Positions 1,512-18,822 of a stretch of 29,338 bases of DNA are shown in pieces. The notes beneath the pieces were generated by a model. It was not told where the DNA came from and searched no databases. It was given only the letters and a program-made list of their open reading frames with translations. How positions within the stretch are numbered: the stretch's first letter is position 1; each line of letters starts with the position of its first letter. The position numbers and the translations under genes are program-made. The DNA is taken from the IMG/VR virus record IMGVR_UViG_3300021165_003991, positions 1-29,338 of that record, one strand, 5' to 3'. This DNA comes from a virus.

Positions 1512-3239
1512 TTAGCAGGGTCCTCCAGGGTTACAAATAAACACAACAGGTGATGCTGAATAGATATCACCACCATATTCGTAGTCCCCAAAGTAAGGTA
1601 TTGTTAATGCGCAGTCACTATAAAGGGTTGCTCCAATATCACTCGGTAATACACCAGGTGCTGTATAAACCGTAACAGAGAATGGATTGTCACATCCACA
1701 AATTCCACCAGGACAGGTATTGGTGCATTCCTGGATTACTATACCTACACATTCTCCAGCAGTTGATGAAGGGGTTGGTGTCATCGTTGGAGTTCTCGTT
1801 GGAGTTGGTGTCTGAGAAACTACACAAACACCTAAATATGATACCTCTGAATAAACATATTCAATACTGTTCAGACAAGCACAAAGTGTGGTTGCTTGGA
1901 ATGGACCTAAAGCCTGAAATTGTGGATTACCGAAACAATCAATATAAAGAAGGTTGTCTGTAAATTCAGTTGCATTCTCAATCAAATATTCACCACAACT
2001 ACAAAGAGGAGTTGATGATGGAGTTGGTGTTGGTGTTGGTGGTAGACAGGGTCCACCTGTTAATATTTGAACCGCAACTTCCGCAACAGGATACTCACAA
2101 GAACAGATGTTATAAACTAACCCTGGTGTAAGTGATAAGTTAAGTGTGACTTGTGTTGCACAATCAACGATTACAACTGAAGCTAATGATTCCCCACTCC
2201 AATACAATTGATACTCTGTGCATCCCTCACAATAAGGTATGGGGGTATTTGATGGAGTTGGTGTTGGTGTTGGACTTAGACCAGGTGTTGGTGTAGGTGT
2301 TGGCGTTGGTTGGATTGGTTCTGTTGACCCTGTAAAGTTTCCAAATAACTGAACTGTGTATTGAACTGTTCCATCTGGGATTTCAGGTAAGTTTGCAGGT
2401 CCCGCTCCAACATATAGAGTATTCCAATCCGTGGCTCCACTTACTGGCTCAATCAAATAAAGATTTTGATAAACGAGGTTACAGTTATTTCTTGGACCTC
2501 CCCCGTTTGTTGTGATATTATCGTAGGTGGTTGCGCTTATCAATACGCCTTGGTCGTCATAAAAATTATATTCTACATAGTAGCCTTGCGAAAAACCTGA
2601 GGTTGCTCCACTCCACAAATAATAGTTTGTGAATCCAAGTGTAAAATAATCTGTTTCTCTTACATCCAATATTCTTGGTGCGTTGGTTAGAAATAAACCT
2701 GATATTGTTGGATAGACCCCCTGTGGTAATCCTGATAGAATAAATGGGTTAATATCAAAATCCTGTTGTGTTGCTCTTGGGTTTGTCCCCATCGTGGAAC
2801 GGAACACCTTATAAGTTTCTGTTTGAACTGCAGGTTCTCCAACTGCATTTCCATATCCTGTGAAACCTGTTACGGGTGATATTTCACTATCAGCATATTC
2901 GTAACCAACCTTCACATAGTAATTTATTACTTCCTCGTTTGCAGGTCTTGAAAATGGAAATGTTTGATGTGTATAAATTGGTGTTGTGTCCCAATATGAA
3001 ATTGGGAGAGAATCTGTATAAGTTTCTAAAATCTGTTGTAAATCTATAATTCCTAATCCAAAGGGGTTCGGTGCACATTTTCCCAAAAACACCAAACTAT
3101 CTTCCACATATAATTCATAGTTAAACTTGAACTTGAATGTTGAAGCAACATTATATGTGTTACTTGAAAGTGTAAAATAAATCCCGTCAGATAAAACAGG
3201 TTGGAATTCACTTGGAGTTGATTGAAATGTAATTGACAT
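1512..3239 (-). CDS. Tail fibre-like protein with Pro/Thr linkers and Cys-rich modules, 575 aa
   Basis: An N-terminal beta-rich domain (about 1-305) of tail-protein type is followed by three low-complexity PTPTPTP-type linkers, coded at 2236-2318, 2008-2042 and 1761-1812. These separate cysteine-rich modules. Two modules align by eye: each opens with a CxxC or CxC plus EY, has a central DC, then a CSC or CAC, and ends in a single Cys. The last module (about 505-575) has eight or more cysteines and ends NPGGPC. The beads-on-linkers plan suggests a protruding surface or receptor-contact protein. It lies between the gp10-like tail protein and the 177-residue tail protein, 4 bp and 12 bp away. 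The cysteines could form disulfides after release from the cell. Binding target unknown. Confidence 0.65.
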   Translation of the reverse strand: MSITFQSTPSEFQPVLSDGIYFTLSSNTYNVASTFKFKFNYELYVEDSLVFLGKCAPNPFGLGIIDLQQILETYTDSLPISYWDTTPIYTHQTFPFSRPANEEVINYYVKVGYEYADSEISPVTGFTGYGNAVGEPAVQTETYKVFRSTMGTNPRATQQDFDINPFILSGLPQGVYPTISGLFLTNAPRILDVRETDYFTLGFTNYYLWSGATSGFSQGYYVEYNFYDDQGVLISATTYDNITTNGGGPRNNCNLVYQNLYLIEPVSGATDWNTLYVGAGPANLPEIPDGTVQYTVQLFGNFTGSTEPIQPTPTPTPTPGLSPTPTPTPSNTPIPYCEGCTEYQLYWSGESLASVVIVDCATQVTLNLSLTPGLVYNICSCEYPVAEVAVQILTGGPCLPPTPTPTPSSTPLCSCGEYLIENATEFTDNLLYIDCFGNPQFQALGPFQATTLCACLNSIEYVYSEVSYLGVCVVSQTPTPTRTPTMTPTPSSTAGECVGIVIQECTNTCPGGICGCDNPFSVTVYTAPGVLPSDIGATLYSDCALTIPYFGDYEYGGDIYSASPVVFICNPGGPC

Positions 3240-3809: not shown

Positions 3810-4364
3810 TTATGGAGTTGTTGAACTTGGTGTGGGAGTTAAAGTTGGTGTTGGTGTAATTGTTGGACTTGCACTTATTGTAGGTGTTGGGTAATAATCA
3901 CAAGCATCAATGGTATCATAAACTATTAAGGGGACTTCAAGTGCAACACCAGCGACGTGGTCGCCGAAGCGCTCAAAAAATGGTAATGCGGTTGCAGGTA
4001 AGTTGATGTCTATATTATCGTAGATTTCAGGTAGAGTGTTCATCCCCCTTTTTATGTATGATAAAAACCTACGAGCCTCCAAAGACATATCACTCACACA
4101 ATCTTTTTCGTTTGATAAATCCCAATTCAATATATCTGCGAATATCATAGTCAAAGAATACACAGTCATATTTTCCTGGTATTCTATGGATTGCGGCACA
4201 ACAAAAAGGAAGGGATAATTTACACTTGAACCTGAAATATTTTTTCCAAAGTCCACAAGGTTTCCATATCCGAATGTGTTTAACATCGGTGATTGCTCCT
4301 GAAAATATTGTAGATAATCAAGAACCTTATGGAAGGTTGTATATTGGTTCATCACATTACTCAT
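3810..4364 (-). CDS. Tail terminator-like protein with Pro/Thr tail, 184 aa
   Basis: Residues 1-155 resemble Bacteroidota phage tail-terminator proteins: a helical start (FHKVLDYLQYFQEQSPMLNTFG), then GNLVDFGKNISG, then YPFLFVVPQS and a beta strand leading to FADIL. The last 28 residues are a low-complexity Pro/Thr/Ser tail (coded at 3813-3891) like the linkers of three other virion proteins here; such a tail is not part of the usual family. The start codon overlaps the stop of the -1 frame of the upstream chaperone gene as TAATG, so translation is probably coupled. The expected role is capping the tail tube and joining it to the head. Confidence 0.55.
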   Translation of the reverse strand: MSNVMNQYTTFHKVLDYLQYFQEQSPMLNTFGYGNLVDFGKNISGSSVNYPFLFVVPQSIEYQENMTVYSLTMIFADILNWDLSNEKDCVSDMSLEARRFLSYIKRGMNTLPEIYDNIDINLPATALPFFERFGDHVAGVALEVPLIVYDTIDACDYYPTPTISASPTITPTPTLTPTPSSTTP

Positions 4365-4666
4365 TATAATTTGTTTTTTCTTTCAAGTTTTTTTAATTCG
4401 TTTTGATGTTGAATAATCTTGTCCTTCATTAGGGATGCGGCATTCAGACATAAATACATATTACTTTCATTCAGTCGGTCGAACTTTGTAATATCTTCTT
4501 TGGATAAATAATAGGTTAATTCAAAATAAAATCGTGCAGCCGCCTCGGAATCAGAAATTTTGGAAGGACCCTCATCCCCCTCAGGATTATCCTCTTGATT
4601 TGATTCATCTGCTTCAAAGAACTTTCCATATTTTTTATGTATGTTGTTGATAAAAGCAAAAAAAAA
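4364..4666 (-). CDS. Tail assembly chaperone, -1 frame extension (C-terminal 101 residues of a 266-aa fusion)
   Basis: This frame has no convincing start of its own. It takes over from the upstream 215-codon frame at a run of nine T (sense strand) at 4658-4666. Joining residues 1-166 of the upstream frame to this one by a -1 slip gives a 266-residue protein ending at 4364. The extension is rich in acidic residues and then helical (DSEAAARFYFELTYYLSKED, then a Lys/Glu-rich end) and looks like native protein. Its stop overlaps the next gene's start as TAATG, the coupling also used at 6311, 14235 and 17407, which argues that this is the natural end. A one-base homopolymer sequencing error is the alternative explanation. 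Confidence 0.6.
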   Translation of the reverse strand, partial: FFFAFINNIHKKYGKFFEADESNQEDNPEGDEGPSKISDSEAAARFYFELTYYLSKEDITKFDRLNESNMYLCLNAASLMKDKIIQHQNELKKLERKNKL

Positions 4667-6577: not shown

Positions 6578-7739
6578 TGATTTTGATTTCTAAAGTTGGG
6601 TCGAGGTTTTTCATTCTATCAATTATAACCTGACAGTATTTAGGGTCCAATTCAATTCCATAACAAACTCTTCCCATTTGATGACAGGCAACCATTGAGG
6701 TCCCCGAACCTAAAAAACCATCAATTACAATATCACCTTTCTTTGAGGAATTATTTATTAGATATGAAAATAATGGTATTGGTTTCATAGTGGGGTGTTC
6801 AGCATTTCTTGCAGGTCTATCAAAATCCAATATTGTAGTTTGTTTTCTATCTGAATACCAATTATGGGGTGCCCCTTCTTTCCAACCATAAAGACAGGGT
6901 TCGTGTTTCCACTGATAATCTTGTCTGCCAAGAACCATAGAATTCTTGTTCCAAATAAGACCTTGCTTTACAAGAACCCCTGCATCACTCAGAGCTTTCC
7001 TAAAATTAATACTTTCCCTATCTGCGTGCCAAACATACCATCCCCCACCTTTTTTTGTTACAAGGTTCAAGTTTACAAAAGAGTCATATAAGAATTTGTA
7101 AAACTCATCATCACCCATTGAGTCATTTTGAATTGTAAGTTTTTCAGATGTTCCACCTTCGTAGGCAACATTATATGGAGGGTCAGTTAATACAAGGTCA
7201 GCAAGATTTCCTGCCATTAATTTTTCCCAATCATCACCAACTGTGGTGTCCCCACAAAGTAATCGGTGCGGTCCTATTTCAATCACATCTCCAATAACAA
7301 TATTAGTTTCCTCAGGGACTACAATATCAAAGTCATCCTCTTCGCCTTCAGGTATAGTTTTGAACTCCGTTGGAACATCCAAACCCCAATCCAATAATAA
7401 ATCCTGACCCCACTCTGCAACCAAAGAGTCCCATTCCCATTCACCATAAGATAAATTGTCTTTTACAATAAACTCCTTTTTTTGTTCGGGGGTTAAATTG
7501 TTGACCTGAATATATGGGACCTGCTCCCATTCCAATTGTAGGAGTGCTTGCAACCTCATATTTCCTGCTAACACAGTCAAAGTTTCGTCAACTATAATTG
7601 GTCTGATTTCCAACATCTCAGGGAACTCTAAAATACTTTTTTTGAGTTTATCCATTTGAGTTGGAGATATTTTTCGTGGGTTCTTTTCATTTGGAACCAA
7701 ACTTCTTATATCAATCCTTTCAATAATATTACTTTCCAT
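6561..7739 (-). CDS. ParB-like domain fused to DNA methyltransferase, 392 aa
   Basis: Residues 8-90 are a ParB/sulfiredoxin-like domain (LVPNEKNPRKIS, and GNMRLQAL at 59-66, the counterpart of the ParB GEHR motif). Residues about 150-385 are an amino-methyltransferase with motif IV TDPPYN at 185-190, HPTMKP at 315-320, and the AdoMet-binding FLGSGTS at 342-348. Motif IV before motif I is the beta-class order, so the target is an exocyclic amino group of adenine or cytosine. ParB-methyltransferase fusions are common in phages and probably protect phage DNA from host restriction or mark it for packaging. No restriction endonuclease is nearby. It overlaps the neighbours at both ends (11 and 17 bp) within the late block. 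Confidence 0.9.
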   Translation of the reverse strand: MESNIIERIDIRSLVPNEKNPRKISPTQMDKLKKSILEFPEMLEIRPIIVDETLTVLAGNMRLQALLQLEWEQVPYIQVNNLTPEQKKEFIVKDNLSYGEWEWDSLVAEWGQDLLLDWGLDVPTEFKTIPEGEEDDFDIVVPEETNIVIGDVIEIGPHRLLCGDTTVGDDWEKLMAGNLADLVLTDPPYNVAYEGGTSEKLTIQNDSMGDDEFYKFLYDSFVNLNLVTKKGGGWYVWHADRESINFRKALSDAGVLVKQGLIWNKNSMVLGRQDYQWKHEPCLYGWKEGAPHNWYSDRKQTTILDFDRPARNAEHPTMKPIPLFSYLINNSSKKGDIVIDGFLGSGTSMVACHQMGRVCYGIELDPKYCQVIIDRMKNLDPTLEIKINGVII

Positions 7740-7914
7740 TGGAGAAGGGGTCGTAAGTTTTTGTTTGATTTAGAAGTTCTTGTAATAACTCACTTTTGGA
7801 AAGTTTCATTTCTGATGCTCTTTCTTTCAATTGTTTTGCAACCTCTGTGGTAATAAAGATATTTTTATAGTCGTAAAAATATTCTTTGTCTGTTTTTGTA
7901 TTTTTAATTTTCAT
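7729..7914 (-). CDS. Ribbon-helix-helix-like small protein, 61 aa
   Basis: A basic 61-residue protein. The segment NIFITTEVAKQLKERASEMK followed by LSKSELLQELL (about residues 18-48) fits a ribbon-helix-helix fold: one beta strand, two helices, and a hydrophobic pattern typical of CopG/Arc-type DNA-binding proteins. It overlaps the methyltransferase gene by 11 bp, so it is translated together with it. It could be a repressor of late or early promoters, or a subunit that guides the methyltransferase. No toxin gene is adjacent, so I do not call it an antitoxin. Confidence 0.55.
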   Translation of the reverse strand: MKIKNTKTDKEYFYDYKNIFITTEVAKQLKERASEMKLSKSELLQELLNQTKTYDPFSNGK

Positions 7915-7920
7915 TGTGTT

Positions 7921-8598
7921 TTAGATTGATGCTTGTTTTATTGGAGTGGTATCAAAATCTGTTATATTTTCGTCATTTAGAATTTTCAGTCCTTCAGGTT
8001 GTATTATCCCCCGTCTTGCAACAGACCAATACCAGTGAATATCATATTGGTATATTCTGTGGTTAATATTGAACCAACGAGGTGTTCCCTGTATTTCACT
8101 CATCCAGGGAGTTTCGTGGTCTAACACATTGGATAAAAAGAATTCCTTATCCCATAACCCCATATGGTGTCCCATTAGATATGGTGAGCGTTGAGAATAT
8201 TTATACAGGTTCCCTTCAACTTTTTCGTAGTGAATGGAATCAAAAGCACAAGCGTGGAACCTTAAACTTTGCATTTGAAGCTCGTTGAACTTATCCAAAT
8301 ATCCCTGTTTAAATTCAAAGGGTGCATACGCCCAATTGTCTTCTTGCATATAGAATACCAAGTCCGAATTAATTTGTTCTAATCCTTTCCGTAATCTGTA
8401 TCCCCACTCTCCTTCACCTGATTTGATATGAAAAACATCATCCTTAAAATCAGGACTTCTCCTTTCAGTCAAAAAATAAATTGGACCTGTGTTGGATGTG
8501 TATTTTTTAAATAACTTAAACCAAGTATTCCAATACGGAGCATAATTATCCATAGTGTGAATTAGAATTGGTATTTTAGATATTCTATCCGGTCTCAT
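7921..8598 (-). CDS. Glycosyltransferase-like protein, 225 aa
   Basis: The first part (KIPILIHTMDNYAPYWNTW) and the strand SDLVFYMQEDNW, with the acidic pair at residues 86-87, look like a GT-A nucleotide-sugar fold, where the acidic pair would bind the metal of the sugar nucleotide. The protein also contains a Trp/Tyr/His-rich C-terminal half (HRIYQYDIHWYWSVARRGI). Length is normal for a small GT. There is no membrane segment. Such enzymes in phages can modify DNA, virion proteins or host surface sugars. It sits in the late block between the ribbon-helix-helix gene and a packaging-like gene, so a virion or DNA target is more likely than host conversion. The assignment rests on fold-like patterns only. 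Confidence 0.6.
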   Translation of the reverse strand: MRPDRISKIPILIHTMDNYAPYWNTWFKLFKKYTSNTGPIYFLTERRSPDFKDDVFHIKSGEGEWGYRLRKGLEQINSDLVFYMQEDNWAYAPFEFKQGYLDKFNELQMQSLRFHACAFDSIHYEKVEGNLYKYSQRSPYLMGHHMGLWDKEFFLSNVLDHETPWMSEIQGTPRWFNINHRIYQYDIHWYWSVARRGIIQPEGLKILNDENITDFDTTPIKQASI

Positions 8599-8600
8599 TT

Positions 8601-9035
8601 TTATTTCTCTTCCTGTTCAGGGTCTTCCCAAGTTTTTTTGATGATTTCAATTTGAATTGGGTTTGCGTTTATTGAAGTTCCCTGTGTTGTTAAATCCACT
8701 CTTGATTGCTCACTCCATCTTTCACTAAACTTGTTTCTCATTATTAAACTCCACAACCTCGAGTTAAATCCATTTCCCCCTGTTTCCTCCATTGAACGAT
8801 GTGCCATATCATACCAATAGTTCTCACATAATTTATGGTATTCATCAACGGCTTCAGAGTATTTTTTATTTCGTTTAATTATTGCTCTGTGTCCCTCCCA
8901 AGAAATACCTAATTCAAGTAGAAATTGTGTGATGTGTTTTCCCTTTTTTCCTGCATCAATTATGATGTTATACCACTCAGGGTTGAGTGTGTGTTCCAAA
9001 GCTGGACGACCTGGTCCTCTTTTACTTCCTTCCAT
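8601..9035 (-). CDS. DNA-packaging/small terminase-like protein with AT-hook-like start, 144 aa
   Basis: The N-terminus KRGPGRPALEH is an AT-hook-like DNA-binding stretch. It is followed by helical segments (FLLELGISWEGHRAIIKRN then KKYSEAVDEYHKL) and a C-terminal motif RLWSLIMRNKFSERW then VDLTTQG. This order is typical of phage DNA-packaging (small terminase) proteins of the 'W-x-x-x-x-K-N-x-F' type. The gene overlaps the upstream gene by 14 bp. A different small-terminase candidate lies next to TerL at 6311-6577. Either this is the DNA-recognition protein and the 88-residue one an accessory, or the reverse. Confidence 0.6.
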   Translation of the reverse strand: MEGSKRGPGRPALEHTLNPEWYNIIIDAGKKGKHITQFLLELGISWEGHRAIIKRNKKYSEAVDEYHKLCENYWYDMAHRSMEETGGNGFNSRLWSLIMRNKFSERWSEQSRVDLTTQGTSINANPIQIEIIKKTWEDPEQEEK

Positions 9036-9279
9036 AATATTGGTTATAGATTTCTTTTATTGAGCTTGCTGCGTGTTCGGGTGTCACCTGTATTTTTGCG
9101 TTGGGATAGACCGTGTAAAATGTTTGTAGTAAAACATTTGCATCAGCCGCATCCCAAACAATAGGTTCCGTTTTTGGTTTAATAATTTCCTCATAGACAT
9201 CGAATGCGACTTTCAGATGGTCTTGTGAATCCAAATTATTTAATACCTGTTTTTTTCCCCCTTTGCAATTACAACCCAT
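9022..9279 (-). CDS. Small protein with N-terminal CxC motif, 85 aa, first gene of the late block
   Basis: I place the start at ATG 9279 (MGCNCKGGKK) rather than the upstream ATG at 9309, because the latter would lie on top of the likely promoter at 9296-9303 and the residues it adds are not protein-like. The product has a CxC followed by a Lys/Gly cluster, then a helical body ending YNQYYGRK. Short proteins beginning MGCxCK are common in Bacteroidota phages, but I know no function for them. The cysteines could bind metal. It is the first gene of the long leftward late transcript and overlaps the next gene by 14 bp. Confidence 0.6.
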   Translation of the reverse strand: MGCNCKGGKKQVLNNLDSQDHLKVAFDVYEEIIKPKTEPIVWDAADANVLLQTFYTVYPNAKIQVTPEHAASSIKEIYNQYYGRK

Positions 9280-9282
9280 AGT

Positions 9283-9330
9283 TTTCTTTGTATTATAAAT
9301 ATAACACAATATTTAAGATAAAAAAGTTTT
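9283..9330 (-). promoter_or_regulatory. Candidate late promoter (leftward)
   Basis: On the minus strand a -7-like TATATTTA (9296-9303) is followed by TAATACAAAGAAAAC just before the start codon at 9279. This aligns with the -7 and initial transcribed sequence of the four early promoters (TTTGTAAKACAAT). The -33 position is only T-rich, not TTGG, so it may need an activator. A 12-bp palindrome TTTTAATTAAAA lies just upstream at 9327-9338. Confidence 0.4.
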
Positions 9331-9353
9331 AATTAAAATAAAGTGCAATAAAA

Positions 9354-9391
9354 AAACCCAGCCTAACATCAAGAGGGACACGGCTGGGTTT
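9354..9391 (-). terminator. Rho-independent terminator of the leftward early block
   Basis: A perfect 10-bp stem AAACCCAGCC (9354-9363) with GGCTGGGTTT (9382-9391) and an 18-base loop. On the minus strand it is followed directly by a T run (the A run at 9351-9356). It lies 47 bp after the stop at 9438 and isolates the early block from the late promoter. Confidence 0.85.
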
Positions 9392-9398
9392 AAGAGAA

Positions 9399-9422
9399 CT
9401 AAAATGGCGGGAGCAATTTTAG
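9399..9422. other. Small inverted repeat beside the terminator
   Basis: CTAAAAT (9399-9405) pairs with ATTTTAG (9416-9422) around a 10-base G-rich loop. It lies between the early stop codon and the terminator hairpin. It may be part of the transcript end or a protein-binding site. No function can be read from it. Confidence 0.35.
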
Positions 9423-9437
9423 ATTTCTATAAATATA

Positions 9438-9716
9438 CTAATTGTTACCGTTAAAGTCAACTTTTGTATTCTCGTAAGGTGATGTTTTCTTTTTTGGCGT
9501 TCTTGCCACCAATTTACCATCACCTTCTAATGTATATTCTACAGCATCCCCCTTAAAAAAAAGGGATTTCCTATGACTATGAAGGAATGTTTTACCTTCA
9601 ACACCATCCTCCAATATTAAAAAATATACATAAAAGAAACCGAAATCCTCTTTCTTTGAAGGTTTCCATAGTCCAAGAAACTCATAGTCCTTTATTCTTG
9701 TTAATTTCCAATCCAT
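9438..9716 (-). CDS. Hypothetical early protein, 92 aa
   Basis: I do not recognise this protein. It begins MDWKLTRIKDYEF, has an aromatic beta-like segment (FGFFYVYFLILEDG), a His/Lys-rich stretch (FLHSHRKSLFFKG) and a basic region near the end (RTPKKKTSPY). No signal peptide or membrane span is apparent. It starts 1 bp before the stop of the previous gene's position (9718), so it shares a transcript with the 92-residue gene upstream, and it is the last gene before the terminator at 9354-9391. An early regulatory or host-takeover role is guessed from position only. Confidence 0.6.
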   Translation of the reverse strand: MDWKLTRIKDYEFLGLWKPSKKEDFGFFYVYFLILEDGVEGKTFLHSHRKSLFFKGDAVEYTLEGDGKLVARTPKKKTSPYENTKVDFNGNN

Positions 9717-9717
9717 T

Positions 9718-9996
9718 TTATTTCTCGATTAAAACTACATTGTCTTCGGGTGAGGTTATACCGTTGAGTTCAGCGTAAAGGAACTCAAAGTATCTTGCCA
9801 AGGTGTAAATGTCTTTGTTGAAATTAAAATACTGTTTGTAAGTGTAACCGTAGATGTCTCCTTTGTATCTTTTTGTGCTCTTGTGAAATTCTTTGAGAGC
9901 TTCCTGCATCAACGCAGGGTGGTTGGTGTGCAAGTAGTCGCTGAATTGTGATTCGGAGTTGGTCAGGGTTTCGTTGGCGAATTCGGTGTTTGTCAT
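9718..9996 (-). CDS. Hypothetical early protein, 92 aa
   Basis: I choose ATG 9996 (MTNTEFANETL). Longer reading upstream to 10098 would translate through the promoter copy at 10010-10062, which is unlikely. The product has an N-terminal polar part and a Tyr/Phe-rich body (YGYTYKQYFNFNKDIYTLAR then YFEFLYAELNG). I do not recognise it. It has its own promoter copy upstream and is followed at 1 bp by the 9438-9716 gene. Confidence 0.6.
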   Translation of the reverse strand: MTNTEFANETLTNSESQFSDYLHTNHPALMQEALKEFHKSTKRYKGDIYGYTYKQYFNFNKDIYTLARYFEFLYAELNGITSPEDNVVLIEK

Positions 9997-10009
9997 ATCC
10001 GTGTGTTTT

Positions 10010-10062
10010 TGTTTTAATTGTCTTACAAATATAAAGCTTATGAGTTGAACTACCAAGTTATT
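10010..10062 (-). promoter_or_regulatory. Early promoter, repeat copy A
   Basis: Minus strand TTGG (10053-10056), 19 bases, then TATATTTG (10026-10033), matching the Bacteroidota -33/-7 pattern. The surrounding 53 bp, including the central AAGCTT and the GTAAGACAATTAAAACA leader, recurs at 10245-10297 and 10612-10664. It drives the gene at 9718-9996. Confidence 0.8.
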
Positions 10063-10231
10063 TTCTACAAAAACCCAACAAAGTATCCAAGAACTCAATT
10101 TGTTCTAAATCAAATTCTTCTTCTTTCAATACTTCTTTTATTTGTTTAGTAATCATACTCATAAGAGTTTGGTTGTTAATAGTGATAATTTCACCTTCTT
10201 GGTTCTGTAAAGTAATGTTTGTGTTTTTCAT
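10058..10231 (-). CDS. Hypothetical early protein, 57 aa
   Basis: Start placed at ATG 10231 (MKNTNITLQNQEGE). An upstream in-frame ATG at 10291 would read through promoter copy B and is rejected. The short product has a beta-like NQEGEIITINNQTL segment followed by an amphipathic acidic helix (KEVLKEEEFDLEQIEFLDTL) and ends GFCRK. I do not recognise it. Its stop lies 2 bp from the -33 element of promoter copy A, so gene and promoter are packed tightly. Confidence 0.55.
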   Translation of the reverse strand: MKNTNITLQNQEGEIITINNQTLMSMITKQIKEVLKEEEFDLEQIEFLDTLLGFCRK

Positions 10232-10244
10232 ATCGGTCTCGTTT

Positions 10245-10297
10245 TGTTTTAATTGTCTTACAAAGTTAAAGCTTATGATTTTAACGACCAAGTTATT
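10245..10297 (-). promoter_or_regulatory. Early promoter, repeat copy B
   Basis: Minus strand TTGG (10288-10291), 19 bases, then TAACTTTG (10261-10268), a full TAnnTTTG match. It is the second copy of the 53-bp promoter repeat and drives the 57-residue gene, starting just past the stop of the 102-residue gene. Confidence 0.82.
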
Positions 10298-10605
10298 TAT
10301 TGTAGTTCATTGAGATAATACAAACAATCTTCCAAGTTAGAATGGATGGTTTCTAAACAAGAAGCCAGGTGTCGTGACTGCTCCCCAACTTCACTTTCCT
10401 GCCAAGTTTCACTTCTGCGTTCATATTTATCCTGTTCTGTGTTCCATATTTCCTCTACCTCATCGACATAGGGTTCAATCTGTTTTAACAATTTAATCAG
10501 TTCCAACCTTTCATTTGTGATGTCTTTCAGAGCATTTGTGATTGGTGTTAATTCTTTTACCAGGGTATAAACCTGTTTCATTGTTTTTTTATCTGAAGCA
10601 TTCAT
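10297..10605 (-). CDS. Hypothetical early coiled-coil protein, 102 aa
   Basis: A 102-residue acidic, almost wholly helical protein (MNASDKKTMKQVYTLVKEL start; LEDCLYYLNELQ end) with heptad-like Leu/Ile spacing. It is probably a small coiled-coil protein. It contains no catalytic motif and I do not recognise a family. It is the first gene of the leftward early block, preceded by promoter copy C, with its ATG about 16 bases from the expected transcription start. Confidence 0.6.
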   Translation of the reverse strand: MNASDKKTMKQVYTLVKELTPITNALKDITNERLELIKLLKQIEPYVDEVEEIWNTEQDKYERRSETWQESEVGEQSRHLASCLETIHSNLEDCLYYLNELQ

Positions 10606-10611
10606 TGTTCT

Positions 10612-10664
10612 TGTTTTAAGTGTCTTACAAAGTTAAAGCTTATGATTTGAACTACCAAGTTATT
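10612..10664 (-). promoter_or_regulatory. Early promoter, repeat copy C
   Basis: Minus strand TTGG (10655-10658), 19 bases, then TAACTTTG (10628-10635). Third copy of the 53-bp repeat, nearly identical to copies A and B. It drives the 102-residue gene and marks the left edge of the gene-free region. Confidence 0.82.
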
Positions 10665-10673
10665 CTTATTCTT

Positions 10674-10720
10674 TATCCAGTTATTATCTCATCCTGTATT
10701 CATTCTCATCTTGTATCCTG
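10674..10720. repeat. Iteron-like short direct repeats
   Basis: TATCCAG (10674), CATCCTG (10690), CATCTTG (10707) and TATCCTG (10714) are near-copies. Two form a longer pair, TCATCCTGTAT and TCATCTTGTAT, 17 bp apart. This is consistent with binding sites for an origin or regulator protein, but the copies are short and imperfect. Confidence 0.35.
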
Positions 10721-10732
10721 ATTCTTTCTTAG

Positions 10733-10976
10733 GTGAGTGCAAGTGAGTGCTTCCTAACCGAATAAGGTTAGTTGACACTCACGAGCTGCTTTCTTGAGGA
10801 GCCGTGGCAATATCATCAGTGAAAGATATTACAAGAGGACAACTTTCAGGATATTCACTCTCCCGCCACATAAACACCTTCCCTCGTTGTGCTGGTGTTG
10901 GACTTTTATTGTGGTTCCCCCAGTAGTCCGTTTATTTCAAGTGTTGCTGGTGGCTTGGTTTTATCCCGTCCAACAC
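10733..10976. ncRNA. Candidate structured RNA or structured DNA element
   Basis: GC content by count is 45% over 10741-10980, against 30% just before it and 18-20% just after it. Inverted repeats include GTGAGTG/CACTCAC, CTAACC/GGTTAG, AATATC/GATATT, GTGGC/GCCAC and the 9-bp GTGTTGGAC/GTCCAACAC. Several are mutually exclusive: AACACC (10873) and CAACAC (10971) compete for the same GTGTTG. GC-rich, hairpin-dense islands in AT-rich genomes often mark structured RNA. No known family is recognised, and the strand is unclear. Confidence 0.4.
10743..10782. repeat. Two-tier hairpin with tandem 8-mer
   Basis: GTGAGTG (10743-10749) pairs with CACTCAC (10776-10782), and inside it CTAACC (10754-10759) pairs with GGTTAG (10766-10771) around a 6-base loop. 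GTGAGTGC is also present 10 bp upstream (10733-10740), so two copies can compete for the same partner. Confidence 0.65.
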
Positions 10977-10991
10977 TAAAACAATAGTAAC

Positions 10992-11015
10992 ACAGTTTTA
11001 TCAAAAACAAACTGT
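10992..11015. repeat. Inverted repeat upstream of the rightward promoter
   Basis: ACAGTTT (10992-10998) pairs with AAACTGT (11009-11015) around a 10-base A-rich loop. It could be an operator or a weak hairpin. It lies about 50 bp upstream of the -33 element of the rightward promoter. Confidence 0.4.
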
Positions 11016-11066
11016 TTCTCATAAATATTTTATTAATCTTTTTACAGAAAAAAAGAGTATAAATGC

Positions 11067-11096
11067 TTTGATTTATAATAAAAAGTGTTATCTTTG
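11067..11096 (+). promoter_or_regulatory. Rightward early promoter
   Basis: TTTG (11067-11070), 18 bases, then TATCTTTG (11089-11096), a full Bacteroidota TAnnTTTG -7 element. The following TAATACAATAAACA resembles the start of the three leftward early transcripts. The first start codon is 23 bp downstream at 11119. Confidence 0.8.
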
Positions 11097-11118
11097 TAAT
11101 ACAATAAACATCAAGACA

Positions 11119-11355
11119 ATGAAAAACATCACTACTCAAAAGGACCTTAAAACCTTCCTACAGACCCCTGAAGCTTTTGAATCAGAATTCAACTACAAAG
11201 GATTTGGTATTTGGTGGAGCGACTACAAAGCTAAAGGTATCCAAACTTCTGATTCAGGTTATTTCCGATGCGACCCAGGCAATGACAAAGAATACAGAGA
11301 GTTTAGAAAATTGGAGGATAAGGAGTTTGCAGGTTTTGAATGGGTATTATCTTAA
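11119..11355 (+). CDS. Hypothetical early protein, 78 aa
   Basis: First gene after the rightward promoter. I choose ATG 11119 (MKNITTQKDLKTFLQ), because an earlier in-frame ATG at 11068 lies inside the promoter. The product has an acidic/aromatic character (YKGFGIWWSDYKAKG then GYFRCDPGNDKEY) and ends GFEWVLS. I do not recognise a family. Being first in the early transcript suggests an immediate-early role such as acting on the host, but nothing in the sequence shows it. Confidence 0.6.
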   Translation: MKNITTQKDLKTFLQTPEAFESEFNYKGFGIWWSDYKAKGIQTSDSGYFRCDPGNDKEYREFRKLEDKEFAGFEWVLS

Positions 11356-11376
11356 ACAACAAAAAAACAGAAAAAA

Positions 11377-11598
11377 ATGGCACAGAACAAAGAAAGACAG
11401 ATTGCAGCTCAATCAAGCTTAAAACTTGTAAACGAATGGTCGGTGAGTTGCGGAAAGTGTTTAACACTTAAAGAGTTGGTTTCCATCTCAGTAGTCCTTG
11501 TGGATTATGTTGAAAATGGTTACTCAAATGCACTTGGAGAAAGATTTGAAAAAATTGACGAGTATCTTGCAACCAAACCAACAATCACCAAGAAATGA
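11377..11598 (+). CDS. Hypothetical early protein, 73 aa
   Basis: A 73-residue mostly helical protein. The segment CLTLKELVSISVVLVDYVEN followed by a helix ending KIDEYLATK resembles short early proteins seen in other Bacteroidota phages, none of which has a role known to me. There is a CxxC (SCGKC, residues 25-29), possibly metal-binding but without a second pair. It begins 21 bp after the previous gene and overlaps the next by 4 bp (ATGA), so it is co-translated. Confidence 0.6.
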   Translation: MAQNKERQIAAQSSLKLVNEWSVSCGKCLTLKELVSISVVLVDYVENGYSNALGERFEKIDEYLATKPTITKK

Positions 11599-11963
11599 AA
11601 CCCCTTTTAATCAACGGAGAGGACTTCAAGACCAATAAAACTGTGGTCTTCTCCAACGCAGAGTTAAAAGTGATTTATAACCACTTTGCAGAGGTTATAG
11701 AGGACTTTCCCGAGATGATGACATTCCAATCAGTCCTTGAGAAAATAAAAGAAAGGGTTGAGGATGATTGTGAGTATTGTAACTTCTATGGGGTTGAGGA
11801 AATTAACAACATACAAGTTATGTCAGCAGAGGTGGTTGTGGATTTAAATGTCCAATCCACTTTCAACGATGAAAAAAATGATATGGTTATATTTTTCCCT
11901 TTGGAAAAGATGGATGAGATGTGTAATTTTTACACAAAAAATACTCAGTTATTAACTTTTTAA
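11595..11963 (+). CDS. Hypothetical early protein, 122 aa
   Basis: An acidic 122-residue protein starting MKPLLINGEDFKTNK. It has a helical N-terminal half (ELKVIYNHFAEVIEDFPEMM) and a Cys pair (CEYC, about residues 59-62). The C-terminal half is beta-like (MSAEVVVDLNVQ, then MVIFFPLEKM). I do not recognise a family. It overlaps the upstream gene by 4 bp and is followed by a 33-bp AT-rich gap. Confidence 0.6.
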   Translation: MKPLLINGEDFKTNKTVVFSNAELKVIYNHFAEVIEDFPEMMTFQSVLEKIKERVEDDCEYCNFYGVEEINNIQVMSAEVVVDLNVQSTFNDEKNDMVIFFPLEKMDEMCNFYTKNTQLLTF

Positions 11964-11996
11964 TTCAAATAAAACTATTTATATTTAAACAAAAAG

Positions 11997-12179
11997 ATGG
12001 GACAAACAAAAAGAATTTTCGAGGAGATGAGCTTACAGGAACTAATCCTGTTCCAATTCAGTAACAACTTGGATGATGACGATTATCAATATGAGAAATG
12101 GAGGGAGCAACAATTAGAAAATGAACGACTTGCTTATGAGGAGCATTTAGCAGACAAATACCAAAATGGTAACTTCTAA
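11997..12179 (+). CDS. Hypothetical small acidic protein, 60 aa
   Basis: A 60-residue, strongly charged protein (MSLQELILFQFSNNLDDDDY then a Glu/Arg-rich helix). Probably a helical protein without a membrane segment. The 33-bp gap before it holds TATATTTA (11980-11987), a weak -7-like match, so a secondary promoter is possible. It overlaps the following zinc-finger gene by 14 bp. No family recognised. Confidence 0.5.
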   Translation: MGQTKRIFEEMSLQELILFQFSNNLDDDDYQYEKWREQQLENERLAYEEHLADKYQNGNF

Positions 12180-12498
12180 AATTGATAAATTCTCCAAGAG
12201 ACGAATGATTGGTTCAGACGGACTATGGTATTTGTTTTGCAGAATGTGTGGTGATTACAAACCCGAATATGAATTTTATAATTCCAAAGACACTCCCTTT
12301 GGAAAAACATACAAGTGTAAATTACACTATCAAAAAGACCAACCGAAGTCAGACCCTGATACTGAGTATTTGAAACTTTCAACAATCACGGATGATGACT
12401 TGGCTCAGACCGAACTATTCTTAAAAACTTTAGGATACACAATCGGTCCAAACGAACTTCCAATATGGAGGCAATTTGAAATAAAACATAAAATATAA
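12166..12498 (+). CDS. Zinc-finger-like early protein, 110 aa (paralog of 12910-13227)
   Basis: Residues C25, C28, C51 and H54 (FCRMCGDYKP then YKCKLH) form a likely CCCH zinc site, a pattern common in small phage proteins related to HNH or zinc-ribbon domains. The HNH catalytic histidines are not evident, so nuclease activity is not supported. The C-terminal part (LFLKTLGYTIG then LPIWRQFEIKH) aligns by eye with the end of the protein at 12910-13227, which marks the two as paralogs. It may bind nucleic acid. It overlaps its upstream neighbour by 14 bp and lies 5 bp before a helix-turn-helix-like gene. Confidence 0.62.
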   Translation: MVTSKIDKFSKRRMIGSDGLWYLFCRMCGDYKPEYEFYNSKDTPFGKTYKCKLHYQKDQPKSDPDTEYLKLSTITDDDLAQTELFLKTLGYTIGPNELPIWRQFEIKHKI

Positions 12499-12503
12499 AA
12501 ACT

Positions 12504-12938
12504 ATGATAGGAAGCTCAAAAATAGACGACCAATCCGATGACCTGAAAAGATTAAACGACTTATTTGAATTGGGTTTAAACAATTGTGAAATCCAAAGAA
12601 TTTATCGCACAAATAAAGGTGAGTCAATTTCAAGGGTTCACATATCACAAATCAGAAGGGGTTTAAGATGGAACCCAAACTTGAGGTCATTTGTGATGAA
12701 AAACGAACTTGAAGCAAATGACACAATTGAAACCCTGATTGATGGTGTTAATATTAAAACAACCGTAGCACAGTTGTTAGTTGATAATCAACTATACCAC
12801 ATTTATTTGACTTATGTTGACGCAATTTTAGATTTAGATACAAGGACATCACTTTGTATAAATAAACCCACCAAAAAGGATTTAATTGCGTTTCATCATA
12901 ATAAGGTAAATGAGATATCCAACCACACAGAAAATTGA
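12504..12938 (+). CDS. Helix-turn-helix-like early protein, 144 aa
   Basis: Residues about 15-60 (LNDLFELGLNNCEIQRIYR then ISRVHISQIRRGLRWNP) resemble a helix-turn-helix of the kind that recognises DNA: a short helix, a Ser/Gly turn, and a recognition-like SRVHISQIRRG helix. The C-terminal half has no recognised domain. It could be the transcription regulator that switches the early promoters. It lies between two paralogous zinc-finger genes and overlaps the second by 29 bp. Function is inferred from the motif only. Confidence 0.55.
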   Translation: MIGSSKIDDQSDDLKRLNDLFELGLNNCEIQRIYRTNKGESISRVHISQIRRGLRWNPNLRSFVMKNELEANDTIETLIDGVNIKTTVAQLLVDNQLYHIYLTYVDAILDLDTRTSLCINKPTKKDLIAFHHNKVNEISNHTEN

Positions 12939-13227
12939 AAGATTAATTTATCAGGACGATATTGAATTGTGTTGGTGTTCGTATGAGAACGAATACAAAC
13001 CTTGCACTGAATTTTCAGGTAGACCTTTTAAACCTGGTGAACACAGGTTTCAATATTATTGCAGGAGCTGTCACACAGCAATAAAAAGAGGTGACTTGAA
13101 ACCAAATGTATCTATTTATACAATACAAAGTGCAAATGAATTGTTAGAGAAAATTGGTTATAAAACTGATTCAGATTTGACAGTTCATCAACAGTTTCTA
13201 AAAAAACATTTCAATGACTCAATTTGA
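12910..13227 (+). CDS. Zinc-finger-like early protein, 105 aa (paralog of 12166-12498)
   Basis: Cysteines at 21, 23, 51 and 54 (CWC then YCRSCH) with H55 indicate a zinc site. The N-terminal pair is CxC rather than CxxC as in the 110-residue relative, a difference that may alter geometry. The C-terminal LLEKIGYKTDS then LTVHQQFLKKH aligns with LFLKTLGYTIG then LPIWRQFEIKH of that protein. Probably nucleic-acid binding. It overlaps both neighbours (29 and 14 bp). Confidence 0.6.
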   Translation: MRYPTTQKIERLIYQDDIELCWCSYENEYKPCTEFSGRPFKPGEHRFQYYCRSCHTAIKRGDLKPNVSIYTIQSANELLEKIGYKTDSDLTVHQQFLKKHFNDSI

Positions 13228-13444
13228 AAAAGATTATCAAAGTGTGGTTCAGGAGTTCAAAAAGGTTGTTACTCCCGACCAGTTGAATGCTGCATCACGA
13301 CTTAAAAGGTTTTTCTTTGATAAGTATGTGGTTTTAATTTCCCAAACCGATAAAAAGTTCATTCAGGTTCAGAGTGAATTAAACGAACTTGAAATTCTAA
13401 CCACAAAAAAGATTTCAAGTGCTTATTTTTTCAATAAGAATTAA
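13214..13444 (+). CDS. Hypothetical early protein, 76 aa
   Basis: Last gene of the rightward block, 76 residues, helical and basic-aromatic (FEKDYQSVVQEFKKVV then RLKRFFFDKYVVL). Its stop (13442-13444) overlaps the stop of the convergent late gene at 13441 by 4 bp, so the two transcripts meet with no spacer. No separate terminator is visible at this junction, which implies read-through into antisense sequence from one side or the other. No family recognised. Confidence 0.6.
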   Translation: MTQFEKDYQSVVQEFKKVVTPDQLNAASRLKRFFFDKYVVLISQTDKKFIQVQSELNELEILTTKKISSAYFFNKN

Positions 13445-13599
13445 TCTTCCTTATTTTTAAGGTTTCTCCAAATCAAAATAAGATTCAGTCCAATTGCTGT
13501 TGCAAGTGAAAGGATTGTTAGAATTTGTATGGTGTTCATAACAGTCATTCCGACTGCACCTAAGGTTACCAAGTTTGCGATTGAAGTATCTTTTTCCAT
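13441..13599 (-). CDS. Small membrane protein, holin candidate, 52 aa
   Basis: A 52-residue protein from ATG 13599, 3 bp after the adaptor gene. It begins MEKDTSIANL and is followed by about 36 hydrophobic residues (8-44) and a charged tail (WRNLKNKED). This is either one long or two short membrane spans with little loop, consistent with a small holin, and it lies at the end of the late transcript where lysis genes often lie. No endolysin is next to it, and a membrane-anchored tail or unknown protein is also possible. Confidence 0.55.
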   Translation of the reverse strand: MEKDTSIANLVTLGAVGMTVMNTIQILTILSLATAIGLNLILIWRNLKNKED

Positions 13600-13602
13600 A
13601 AC

Positions 13603-14235
13603 TTACTCCCCTGAACCTCGTCCACCATACCACCAAGGCAAGGAACAGTCAAATAAAGTATTTATTCCATTTCCAAAAACACCACGATTAAGATTATTAT
13701 AGTAACGATTTGTTGGAAGGATTATTGAAGTTCTAAATGGTGAACCAAACTCAGGTATTAACTGACCGTTGTTTAAAACTTGTGTGTAAAGTGGGTATAA
13801 GAAATTGTTAAATACAAGGTGACGACGCATTAAATTATCGAGAAATTGAGCGCGGTCTTTAGCACTGTCTTTTAAATATTGAAACTCTTTTAATCCAATA
13901 GGATTTGATTGCTCAGAACGGAATTGTTGTAGACCAACATTAACCATTTTAACAAACATATTATCCAACAGAATATAGTAGGAATATGCAACCAAAGCAG
14001 GTTGGATAAAATTATCTAAAAGTTGTTTGTTGTTTGTAGCATTCGGGAGTAAAATATCTCCACTCTCAACCTGATTAAGAATTTGCTCAAAGAGGTTGGT
14101 TCCAAGTGTCTCCTGAATATAAATATTTTGAGCCTGTTGAATGGAATATCTCAATTCATCAGAATCGACATTCGGGTCAATTGGTGCCTGACTTTTGAGT
14201 TTTTGTTCTGATATTAAAAGGACATTATAATTCAT
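13603..14235 (-). CDS. Head-tail adaptor (DUF6712-like), 210 aa
   Basis: The start (NYNVLLISEQKLKSQAPIDP), with a mid-helix QQAQNIYIQETLGTNLFEQI, matches a head-tail connector family common in Bacteroidota phages. These act as a ring between portal and tail. The helical body to about residue 150 is followed by a long, polar tail rich in Asn, Gly and Tyr. It overlaps the portal stop by one base (TAATG), so portal and adaptor are made together. Confidence 0.7.
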   Translation of the reverse strand: MNYNVLLISEQKLKSQAPIDPNVDSDELRYSIQQAQNIYIQETLGTNLFEQILNQVESGDILLPNATNNKQLLDNFIQPALVAYSYYILLDNMFVKMVNVGLQQFRSEQSNPIGLKEFQYLKDSAKDRAQFLDNLMRRHLVFNNFLYPLYTQVLNNGQLIPEFGSPFRTSIILPTNRYYNNLNRGVFGNGINTLFDCSLPWWYGGRGSGE

Positions 14236-15308
14236 TATAGGATTTCGTTTTGTTGAATTGTTAAGTCAATCTTTTCATTCGGATACATCAATTGTAAAAT
14301 TGGTTGAAGTTCTCTGATGATAAATTCTTGCAAAGGTTTTATGGTTGTGCTCATAAATAGTTGATGTGATGTTTTGAGCTGGTCTGCTTGAGATGAAAAT
14401 CCTGAACCTGTTGGGAGTCCCACCAATGAACCATCTGGCACTTTATGACCGGCAAGTATATTTTCTCTAACCAAAGCAAATATTTCTGCATATCCCCCTG
14501 TTTGCATCGTTGGTGTGATTTGAGTGATTTCAGGTTTAGCACCATCAACCCCACCCCAAGAAACAATAATGCGTCCTGCGTTATTACTTCCCACATATCT
14601 TTCCTCTAATCTTCTTAATATATTATTTTGTTCCTGCTCCGAATCTGGCGCGGACTCAGGCAGATGGACCCACAAACTTGGGCTAGCCCCGTTAGTTACA
14701 TTGTGTAAATTAAAGCTTGAAATTGCCCTTGAAAGACGGATGTCTAATAGAGCGGAAATATAATCAGGAGACCCGTAAAAAATGTAACCAGGTTGGTATG
14801 CTTTGATTGCTACCACCTGTCTATTTTCGTAAGAATCAGGCGAGAATTCTTGTAATTCAATCAATCCCGCCTTTTTCCAATTCAACCAATCCTGGCAATA
14901 AAACCACTTATCAGAATATAACTCAGCATTATCAGGTTGTTTAGCTCTCATAAATTTAGAAGGAATTATATGGAAACCACTGATACCTTCTCTCCTATCT
15001 TTTTTCCACACGATTTCAAGGAATAAATTGCCTGTCACCACGAACTCCCAAAAAATCTGTTTAATAACATCGTTGATGGTTTCCTTGTTATTAATTTTAT
15101 AATCGTTTGTAAATCCCTTTCCAGCACCATTATCAACCTTGCTTCTTACACAAGCGTTATGGATTGGAGAAAAATCAGTATAATAGTAAAATCTTTCTAC
15201 TTCACTATTATCTAATCCCCATCTAACGAATGGTTCGTTTTTAAAGCTTTTTTCTACCCATCGGTCTATATTATCGACCGTGAAGTTCATCGAATCTAAT
15301 TTAATCAT
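14235..15308 (-). CDS. Portal protein, 357 aa
   Basis: The dodecameric portal at the capsid vertex through which DNA is packed. The segment near residues 182-214 (GSPDYISALLDIRLSRAISS then FNLHNVTNGASPS) is a portal signature, and the body (VTGNLFLEIVWKK, later TPTMQTGGYAEIFALVREN) and LVGLPTGSGFSS fit PBSX/HK97-type portals. The length is at the short end for the family. Unlike the usual order, it lies far from the terminase, at the end of the late transcript. It overlaps the 148-residue gene by 8 bp. Confidence 0.88.
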   Translation of the reverse strand: MIKLDSMNFTVDNIDRWVEKSFKNEPFVRWGLDNSEVERFYYYTDFSPIHNACVRSKVDNGAGKGFTNDYKINNKETINDVIKQIFWEFVVTGNLFLEIVWKKDRREGISGFHIIPSKFMRAKQPDNAELYSDKWFYCQDWLNWKKAGLIELQEFSPDSYENRQVVAIKAYQPGYIFYGSPDYISALLDIRLSRAISSFNLHNVTNGASPSLWVHLPESAPDSEQEQNNILRRLEERYVGSNNAGRIIVSWGGVDGAKPEITQITPTMQTGGYAEIFALVRENILAGHKVPDGSLVGLPTGSGFSSQADQLKTSHQLFMSTTIKPLQEFIIRELQPILQLMYPNEKIDLTIQQNEIL

Positions 15309-16921: not shown

Positions 16922-17407
16922 TTAGTGTTCTATTTGTATGTTAAGTGAGTTTTCAGTTTGTATAAAATCGAAATCCTCGGCTTGAAGTTTAAATCCTGCA
17001 GGTGTCGTTGCACTTGGCGTTGGTGTTGTTGTTGGCGTTGGTGTTGCAGGTGGGGTTGTTGATGCTGTAATACTTGGCGTAATACTTGGCGTTGGTGTTG
17101 GTGTAGTTGTTAAAGTTGTTGTAGTGGTTGGGGTTGGTGTATTTGTTGGCGTTTGTGAAGGTGGTATAAATGTCGGGGTTGGTGAAGGCGTTGTTGTTGG
17201 AGTAGCTGTAAGGGTTGTTGAAGGCGTAGGCGTAGGGGTGTTTGATGCGGTTATTGAAGGGGTTGGAGTATTTGATGGCGTTATACTTGGGGTTGGTGTT
17301 GGCGTGGGTTGAATGGGGTCAGGCACAAACCCAACAATAATATCGTTGAGTGCGCGGTTCTCGCCAAGATAATTGGAGAATTGTTTATTTAGAAATACTC
17401 TTGCCAT
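16922..17407 (-). CDS. Pro/Thr-rich linker protein, 161 aa
   Basis: Two short folded ends (residues 1-33, starting MARVFLNKQFSN, and 137-161, ending NIQIEH) flank about 103 residues of Pro/Thr/Ser repeats coded at 17000-17308. The lead-in (IIVGFVPDPIQPTP) is nearly the same as in the 382-residue linker protein at 17674 ([13 protein letters not shown]), so the two are related at their N-terminal ends. Probably an extended stalk. Thr/Ser density makes O-glycosylation possible. It overlaps the upstream gene's stop by one base. Confidence 0.6.
   Translation of the reverse strand: MARVFLNKQFSNYLGENRALNDIIVGFVPDPIQPTPTPTPSITPSNTPTPSITASNTPTPTPSTTLTATPTTTPSPTPTFIPPSQTPTNTPTPTTTTTLTTTPTPTPSITPSITASTTPPATPTPTTTPTPSATTPAGFKLQAEDFDFIQTENSLNIQIEH
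17000..17308 (-). repeat. Pro/Thr-coding minisatellite
   Basis: About 309 bp of imperfect ACN-CCN repeats coding Thr-Pro and Ser/Thr blocks. The same composition is found at 18439-18669, 2236-2318, 2008-2042, 1761-1812 and 3813-3891. Length is likely variable between isolates because such repeats slip. Confidence 0.8.
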
Positions 17408-17673: not shown

Positions 17674-18822
17674 TTAATAATTTCTTCCTAATGTTGTGTT
17701 AAATGTGTGAACTGCATTTTGTAAACTTGTCACTTGACCTGCAGTCAATGAAAGTCCCAAACTAAAAAATGCACATCTTTTATTTGTAAATGCATCAGCT
17801 ATACCAACATTAACACTATTTCGTGCAAATACATAGAAATTACCATTTATCTTATTTGTTGAAGCACCCGCTGATGTTGCTTGTGATACCGCATTTTGAT
17901 AAAAAGTGGTCAAAATTGATGATGTCCTTGTTCCAACATAAAACCCTAATGCTGTGCTTGAAGTAGTGTCTAAAGCATAACCGGCTGATGTTTGCACAAC
18001 AGCACCACCATCAGTAGTCGAATCATTCCAATACATACTAGTTCTTACACCTGCAGCGGTTATACCTAAAGCCAACCCGTCATCTGCTGATGTTGCTTGA
18101 TTTGAATAAAAACTCATATGGAAATCATCTAACACCGCCAATGTATTTTCATTGTAATCAACATTTCCGTATGCATTTGTTCCGTTAGATTTTGCACCAC
18201 TCGATGTAAATGTCATACCACCATTCCAGGTAATTTTGGATGTTGCTGATTTTCCTTCAATTGCATTTGATGCTGCAACCCCACCTAAAAGTGGGTAGAA
18301 TTGTTGTAGTTTATCCCATATACCCGCAGATACAATTGATGTGAATAATGTTACAGTCGCAGCGGATATTGTTGCATCAACGGTTCCCCCTGCGGTCACA
18401 ACAGCACTTAAATAAGCATTTGCTTCAGTTGTTCCTGATGCGGGTGGAGTTGATGACGGGGTTGGAGTATTCGTTGGAGTTATACTCGCAGTTATTGAAG
18501 GGGTTACGGACGGAGTATTACTCGGGGTCTGTGATGGTGTTGTAGAAGGGGTATTACTTGGAGTAATACTAGGAGTAATTGAAGGGGTTACCGATGGAGT
18601 AACCGATGGTGTATTTGACGGGGTTGGTGTTGGAGATGTTCCTGGTGTGTTTGTAGGAGTCGGTGATGGTTGAATTGGTGGAACATTTACGCCAACAACA
18701 GTGTTCCACACCGGCATTTCCTTTTGTCCGTATGGTTTAATTGCTTCCTCAAAATCGAATTCTTTTTTCTTTTTGATGAATTGAGCATTTGCTGGTCTAT
18801 AATTTCGTCCGTTCCACTTCAT
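17674..18822 (-). CDS. Fibre-like protein with Pro/Thr linker and lectin-like domain, 382 aa
   Basis: Residues 1-51 are an attachment end, 52-128 a Pro/Thr/Ser linker (coded 18439-18669), and about 133-382 a globular domain. The latter has beta segments (FHMSFYSNQ, then [19 protein letters not shown]) and ends with [13 protein letters not shown] then [14 protein letters not shown], as in LamG/lectin-like domains of phage fibres. This is a good candidate for sugar recognition on the host surface. It is the first gene after the internal terminator at 18840-18865 and would be made at lower level than the tail tube. Confidence 0.65.
18439..18669 (-). repeat. Pro/Thr-coding minisatellite
   Basis: About 231 bp of imperfect repeats coding Thr-Pro-Ser units ([14 protein letters not shown] type), inside the 382-residue fibre-like gene. 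Similar to the array at 17000-17308. Confidence 0.8.

Follow-up and report, generated by a model that had tools for sequence, protein, structure and literature searches.

What is encoded by the GC-rich, hairpin-dense block that lies between two gene sets in the viral record IMGVR_UViG_3300021165_003991? The record comprises 29,338 bases (the whole stretch is hereafter called the window), with leftward genes on one side of the block (10733-10976) and small rightward early genes, starting at 11119, on the other. Comparison with relatives shows that this island is the gene of a conserved structured RNA of about 240 nt that is read leftward (minus strand). A segment near the 3' end of this RNA, here called X or the 'in' copy, is repeated in the same sense in the DNA just past the 3' boundary of the RNA (the 'out' copy). 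As to function, we propose, with a probability of roughly 0.38, that the RNA re-hybridises to its own template at 'out' as an R-loop, most likely priming or licensing replication.

Structure and Covariation of the RNA

An earlier reading made from the letters alone (the sequence-only reading) had described the block as a GC-rich island with competing inverted repeats. Base counting bears out the island: positions 10741-10980 contain 45.0% GC against 19.2% in 10981-11100 and 31.7% in 10621-10740, the window overall has 36.1%, and only 2.9% of 240-bp windows reach the value of the block. The motifs were also found where they had been placed, with GTGTTG at 10895 and 10941, CAACAC at 10971, AACACC at 10873, GCCAC at 10865, GTGGC at 10804 and 10950, and a perfect 9-bp inverted pair (GTGTTGGAC/GTCCAACAC) with a spacer of 64 bases. 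The longest open reading frame (ORF) with a start inside the conserved unit has 61 codons. Single-sequence folding was unremarkable (z = -1.8 for the plus strand and -1.4 for the minus strand) and the repeats alone were non-significant, and therefore the case depends on relatives. Such z values would suit a chance compositional island without function, but the covariation in the family refutes this and the comparison of 'in' with 'out' also argues against it, which makes chance hardly credible.

The same phage as that of the window occurs in L001/L084 (99.99% identity); L001 (IMGVR_UViG_3300005581_000763) is another record of nearly the same phage, matching window positions 7624-15069 over 7446 bases. 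The related phage L008 has a 75%-identical block in the same place between unrelated flanks, where conservation ends at TTAGGTGAGTGC on one side and at GTCCAACACT on the other. The resulting conserved unit (10979 to about 10724, minus strand) almost equals the block as first delimited. Compensatory changes between the window and L008 fit the minus strand, and only 6 bp of the 9-bp pair are left in L008, so that this pair does not hold as a conserved stem. The conserved RNA is built from other stems than those listed in the sequence-only reading, and neither the listed stems nor the mutually exclusive switch pairings proposed there find support. Its suggestion of a structured RNA stands, since the covariation analysis that it had named as a check gives strong support, and its suggestion of a replication origin is the leading, though unproven, reading of function.

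Covariation was computed on 4, 12 and 26 members. With 12 members, changes on both sides were seen in 24 of 25 pairs and 96.1% of cells could pair, against 33-47% when the pairing was slid. With 26 members and a structure that now included pseudoknot 1 and the kissing pair, 32 of 34 pairs were compensatory, 94.6% of cells paired (33-44% slid), and no shuffle matched the observed pairing. These figures favour H1-H5, because the alignments were fitted to the hairpins; the model contained neither pseudoknot 1 nor the kissing pair. Independently of alignment columns, a mix-and-match test compared loop-loop duplexes within and between molecules, and for all three long-range pairings the duplexes were stronger within one molecule (Table 1). 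RNAalifold recovered pseudoknot 1 unprompted (12 of 12 members).

Relation to Known RNA Families

The sequence-only reading recognised no known family, and indeed no Rfam family matches the block at its cut-off; it missed, though, that the first two hairpins give a sub-threshold match to RF02932 (Betaproteobacteria-1), a 120-position model of a small RNA (sRNA) of unknown function whose members are distant relatives. The scores are 25.3 bits for the window, 28.9 for L008 and 32.6 for L195 against a gathering cut-off of 49.4 (E = 0.008, 0.0011 and 0.00018, respectively, after correction for 4227 families), and the window RNA is therefore a distant relative rather than a member as defined. The likeness lies in H1 and H2, whose loop motifs (GG.CGGG...CAGC and CUG.GGG...AA) follow one another as in RF02932, and both the window and L008 align to positions 1-120 with these motifs in register. 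L195 bridges RF02932 and the window RNA, and L232 and L255 are bona fide RF02932 members (87 and 88.5 bits) that were found by model R3, which was built without them. RF02932 differs in describing mainly the first two hairpins: the model has no pseudoknots 1 and 2, H5, H6 or in/out copies, and its structure line has no kissing pair.

GOLLD and ROOL RNAs likewise occur in phages, have elaborate folds and lack a known function (PMC12286853). They are much larger (GOLLD members exceed 800 nt) and often lie by tRNA islands, and the window contains no Rfam match to GOLLD, ROOL or OLE at gathering or E ≤ 5. We found no description in the literature searched of the fold beyond the first two hairpins, of the wide phage distribution or of the in/out copies, and none on RF02932, although an earlier description is possible. 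From a sub-threshold piece of an Rfam entry with no assigned function, the comparison leads to a family of phage RNAs whose whole fold is described and of which about 40 members were found. The family provides an annotation marker for metagenomic phages and bacterial mobile elements.

Distribution

The covariance model grown from the window RNA found about 38 viral contigs and two Bacteroidota chromosomes. Model R1, built from the window RNA and L008, retrieved L079 (E = 2e-12) and L011 (E = 4e-4); R2 retrieved L114, L110, L103, L116, L015 and later L150, together with the cellular loci G707 (E = 9e-10) and G803 (E = 1.5e-11). A pattern made from the RF02932 loop motifs matched 65 viral contigs, 29 of which were confirmed by R3 (E ≤ 0.004). 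A motif match in L086 was recA-like coding sequence hit by chance, none of twelve chromosomal motif matches was confirmed by R2, and the cellular matches G1056, G629 and G658 were dropped as they resemble protein-coding DNA.

The viral members are phages from metagenomes that differ strongly in gene content and GC (up to 64%), and the two chromosomal members lie in mobile or defence neighbourhoods, in which genes were named by inspection. In G707 (L192 8371-15225) the RNA is situated between RloAB-like genes and DUF1837 and helicase-like (possibly Hachiman) genes. G803 (L195 122-7210) is an integrative element with an integrase fragment, an excisionase, the RNA, a ribbon-helix-helix gene and a serine recombinase, and also type III restriction-modification-like genes. 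Neighbours of the RNA include terminase, primase-helicase and integrase genes, and reading by eye revealed no shared protein partner beside the RNA loci. The family is patchy, as 100 other loci, mostly relatives by their terminase genes and with L006 and L007 among them, had no match at R3 sensitivity. L007 contains dense CTAG repeats (ACTAGTTACTAG...) at 4170-4370, in the intergenic region that precedes its MGCNCK-terminase genes; the related phage of the window carries the RNA at this place. DNA similarity searches of INPHARED phages and PLSDB plasmids gave no meaningful match to the block or its relatives, and the RF02932 and R3 models found nothing in 369 Gammaproteobacteria genomes, a search run without a positive control. 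Two RNA-bearing contigs also have tRNA genes, L199 at 10056-10129, about 330 bases upstream of the RNA, and L255 at 9871-9943 (minus strand).

Matching Copies Inside and Beside the RNA

The 'in' copy is placed between H5 and H6 after a motif like GGCUCC(G). The 'out' copy follows CUCACC(A/U), at a distance past H6 of 10-13 nt in the window group and of 20 nt in L015. X is AAGAAAG in the window, AAAAUAGA in L008, AAAAGCTATTAG in L212, TTTAGGAA in L199 and CCAAGGAGAAAG in L232; it varies between phages, yet within each phage 'in' matches 'out', and this comparison shows that the two copies change together. The longest shared run was 8.0 in the own phage against 5.3 between phages (p ≤ 1e-5), and the similarity score (n = 24) was 19.1 for copies of one phage and 12.7 when phages were mismatched (p ≤ 1e-5); a control region inside the RNA gave no effect. 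Comparison with the reverse complement yielded a small effect (13.1 vs 12.2, p = 0.02), and two of the 24, L253 and L255, had no clear match in the automatic test. A pair of short matching sequences, of which the RNA contains one and the DNA at its edge the other, is a testable hallmark of the family.

The RNA and its flanks contain no convincing complement of X (lowest p 0.03 among many tests). The two copies are therefore not explained by RNA-RNA pairing, which leaves hybridisation to the template strand or a partner that binds both copies. The match is always situated immediately 3' of the RNA and has its sense, which is what hybridisation in cis would require, and co-transcriptional re-hybridisation needs exactly such an identity at the RNA's own 3' edge. 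Alternatively, both copies could be DNA or RNA sites of a phage-specific protein and co-vary through its specificity, with no RNA-DNA pairing involved. Direct repeats are common as protein sites (iterons, terminase sites), and ParB-like proteins or small terminase subunits are frequently encoded nearby; against this, the copies follow different motifs, always a conserved GGCUCC for the one inside the folded RNA and CUCACC for the other, and no single conserved binding protein was seen adjoining all members. We consider shared protein sites unlikely.

A mobile RNA-guided element that inserts before X would likewise yield two copies, 'in' being its targeting sequence and 'out' the occupied target. 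IS110 bridge RNA, IscB omega-RNA (HEARO) and TnpB reRNA all have a segment that matches DNA at or adjoining their own element. The patchy occurrence among close relatives, the member inside an integrative element and the guide-like look of a single internal flank copy agree with such an element. However, the window and L008 are syntenic and X has changed in both copies together, which argues for constraint in place and not for re-insertion. There is no example of an empty site with X, and among the listed neighbouring ORFs, which were read by eye, no recombinase that travels with the RNA and no IS110, IscB or TnpB gene was noticed. In contrast to these guide RNAs, the copy in the window family is internal and short and matches the 3' edge of the RNA gene itself. 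Insertion of a mobile element thus seems improbable.

Table 1. Positions and support of the RNA, its elements and neighbouring features in the window (pairing figures from 26 members unless stated otherwise).
Feature	Position	Strand	Description	Support
Structured non-coding RNA	10743..10979	minus	5' end 10979 to H6 3' end 10743, ends predicted	Models R1-R3, covariation
H1 hairpin	10940..10977	minus	10971-10977 with 10940-10946; loop GACGGG...CCACCAG	98.3% of cells paired; changes on both sides in 7/7 pairs
H2 hairpin	10900..10929	minus	10925-10929 with 10900-10904; loop ACUGGGGGAACC...	96.9% paired; compensatory in 5/5 pairs
Kissing loops H1-H2	10920..10950	minus	H1 loop CCAG 10947-10950 with H2 loop CUGG 10920-10923	90.4% paired; mix-and-match p = 2.5e-4
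H3 hairpin	10873..10899	minus	10894-10899 with 10873-10878	88% paired; changes on both sides in 6/6 pairs
Pseudoknot 1	10835..10885	minus	H3 loop GAGGG 10881-10885 with UCCUC 10835-10839	99.1% paired (22 members); mix-and-match p ≤ 5e-5
Pseudoknot 2	10818..10859	minus	AGUGAA 10854-10859 with UUCACU in H5 loop 10818-10823	Mix-and-match p ≤ 5e-5
H5 hairpin	10808..10831	minus	10825-10831 with 10808-10814	93.4% paired; changes on both sides in 7/7 pairs
'In' copy	10789..10795	minus	AAGAAAG after motif GGCUCC(UC)	
H6 3' hairpin	10743..10782	minus	GUGAGUG 10776-10782 with CACUCAC 10743-10749	Compared sequences (L008, L079 and others) restore it through compensatory changes
'Out' copy	10724..10730	minus	AAGAAAG just 3' of motif CUCACCU 10731-10737	
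Candidate unwinding element	10669..10720	minus	AT-rich, purine-rich DNA just beyond 'out'	
Leftward genes	10605-9438	minus	Window ORFs	
MGCNCK gene	9279-9022	leftward		
Candidate terminase small subunit	9035-8601	leftward		PHROG E 0.0003
Terminase large subunit	6311-5160	leftward		
ParB/methylase protein			Same side of the block as the terminase genes	

Possible Function of the RNA

Masukata and Tomizawa (1990, Cell 62:331) reportedly found that ColE1 RNA II, a replication primer, has a structured leader with an internal loop resembling the non-template DNA near the site of lasting hybridisation. The window family resembles this RNA in having a transcript loop of the same sense as the DNA at its 3' edge that is not complementary to other parts of the RNA, with easily melted DNA just downstream (family-wide; weak in the window). 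It differs in that no relation in sequence or structure was found, and in that its members occur in phages and integrated elements, with no plasmid found by BLAST. By analogy, the folded RNA would present 'in', which would pair with the template strand at 'out' and form or stabilise an R-loop at the border of the RNA's own gene. Less certainly, this R-loop may melt the AT-rich DNA next to it, and after trimming by host RNase H the hybrid might prime or license DNA replication by host enzymes as in ColE1. The RNA gene and 'out' together would then constitute a portable origin specified by RNA.

R-loop replication is the best single account because it combines the same-sense identity at the 3' edge, the AT- and purine-rich DNA beyond it and the lack of a visible common protein. 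Across the family, the 50 bp after 'out' have a GC fraction of 0.246 against 0.394 for the locus and 0.362 upstream of ORFs (p = 2.6e-5) and are purine-rich on the RNA-like strand (p = 6e-4); the window by itself shows just a slight dip (0.32 vs 0.33-0.35). Among those window proteins that were scanned with Pfam and PHROGs, neither a polymerase nor a primase, a helicase or an initiator was found. Related contigs fall within 27.6-31.3 kb, a clustering that suggests near-complete genomes, and we count the missing replication protein in favour of the R-loop. If the RNA does bind back to its template, it would provide a portable and re-programmable RNA-specified site and could explain how replication starts in phages of about 30 kb that have no recognisable replication genes.

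Several observations weigh against R-loop replication. In the close relatives G010 and G012 (29-30 kb) no RNA was detected and no replication gene was seen by eye, so that the RNA is not the sole solution unless a diverged copy was missed. The argument that phages without replication genes need the RNA is weakened accordingly, since RNA-free relatives seem to lack these genes too. Conversely, L232, L247 and L255 carry the RNA plus a T7-like primase-helicase of their own (named by inspection). The in/out matches are short (7-16 nt), and GC skew in the window merely tracks gene direction. A -7-like element is present before the RNA, but as a promoter it is no better than chance. Finally, a gene on the same strand usually begins soon after 'out', and AT-rich leaders also precede genes.

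The last two points suit a regulatory leader as well, which we rank second and regard as possible but doubtful. The RNA would head, in cis, the transcript of the downstream genes, which in many phages are late or packaging genes, and would control elongation or translation, 'in' serving as a decoy or competitor for a factor that acts at 'out' near the downstream start. RNA leaders of phages do act in antitermination (HK022 put). At the majority of loci the ORF listed next shares the strand of the RNA and begins about 280-460 nt after the RNA's 5' end (exceptions L258 and L241), and the RNA is often located between early and late operons. The downstream genes are diverse, however, the next same-strand gene in L191 is 1.2 kb away, and in L079 the RNA is directed away from the terminase genes. 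X has no complement in the RNA, which therefore does not act as a simple switch.

The terminase genes bring up another alternative, namely that the RNA pairs at 'out' and so marks the point on the genome at which terminase or some other nuclease begins packaging or cleavage. Small or large terminase genes adjoin the RNA in the window group and in several other phages, and the matching site is in cis. In phi29, too, a phage RNA (pRNA) with kissing loops occurs close to packaging genes; here there is no Rfam match to it, a single molecule can form the kissing pair, and genes for both small and large terminase subunits are present. The two bacterial loci carry the RNA with no visible terminase genes, the RNA of L232 and L255 lies beside primase instead of terminase, and the members have no nuclease or terminase type in common, which leaves a packaging mark rather unlikely.

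More broadly, and still at somewhat less than even odds, we propose a self-targeting, widespread and apparently protein-independent phage RNA, whose internal guide copies the DNA of its own 3' edge. It would make an R-loop that marks this site in cis as an origin, packaging start or control point, and could be re-programmed through the two short matches.

Other Repeats in the Window

Three near-identical repeats of 54-78 bp (87-94%) precede small leftward genes at 9986-10063, 10221-10298 and 10606-10664. Two of them carry TAACTTTG on the minus strand, which resembles Bacteroidota -7 promoter elements, and judged by their sequence the three are probably repeated promoter modules. Several proteins of the structural region contain long PT-rich repeats (1512-3239, 3810-4364, 16922-17407 and 17674-18822).
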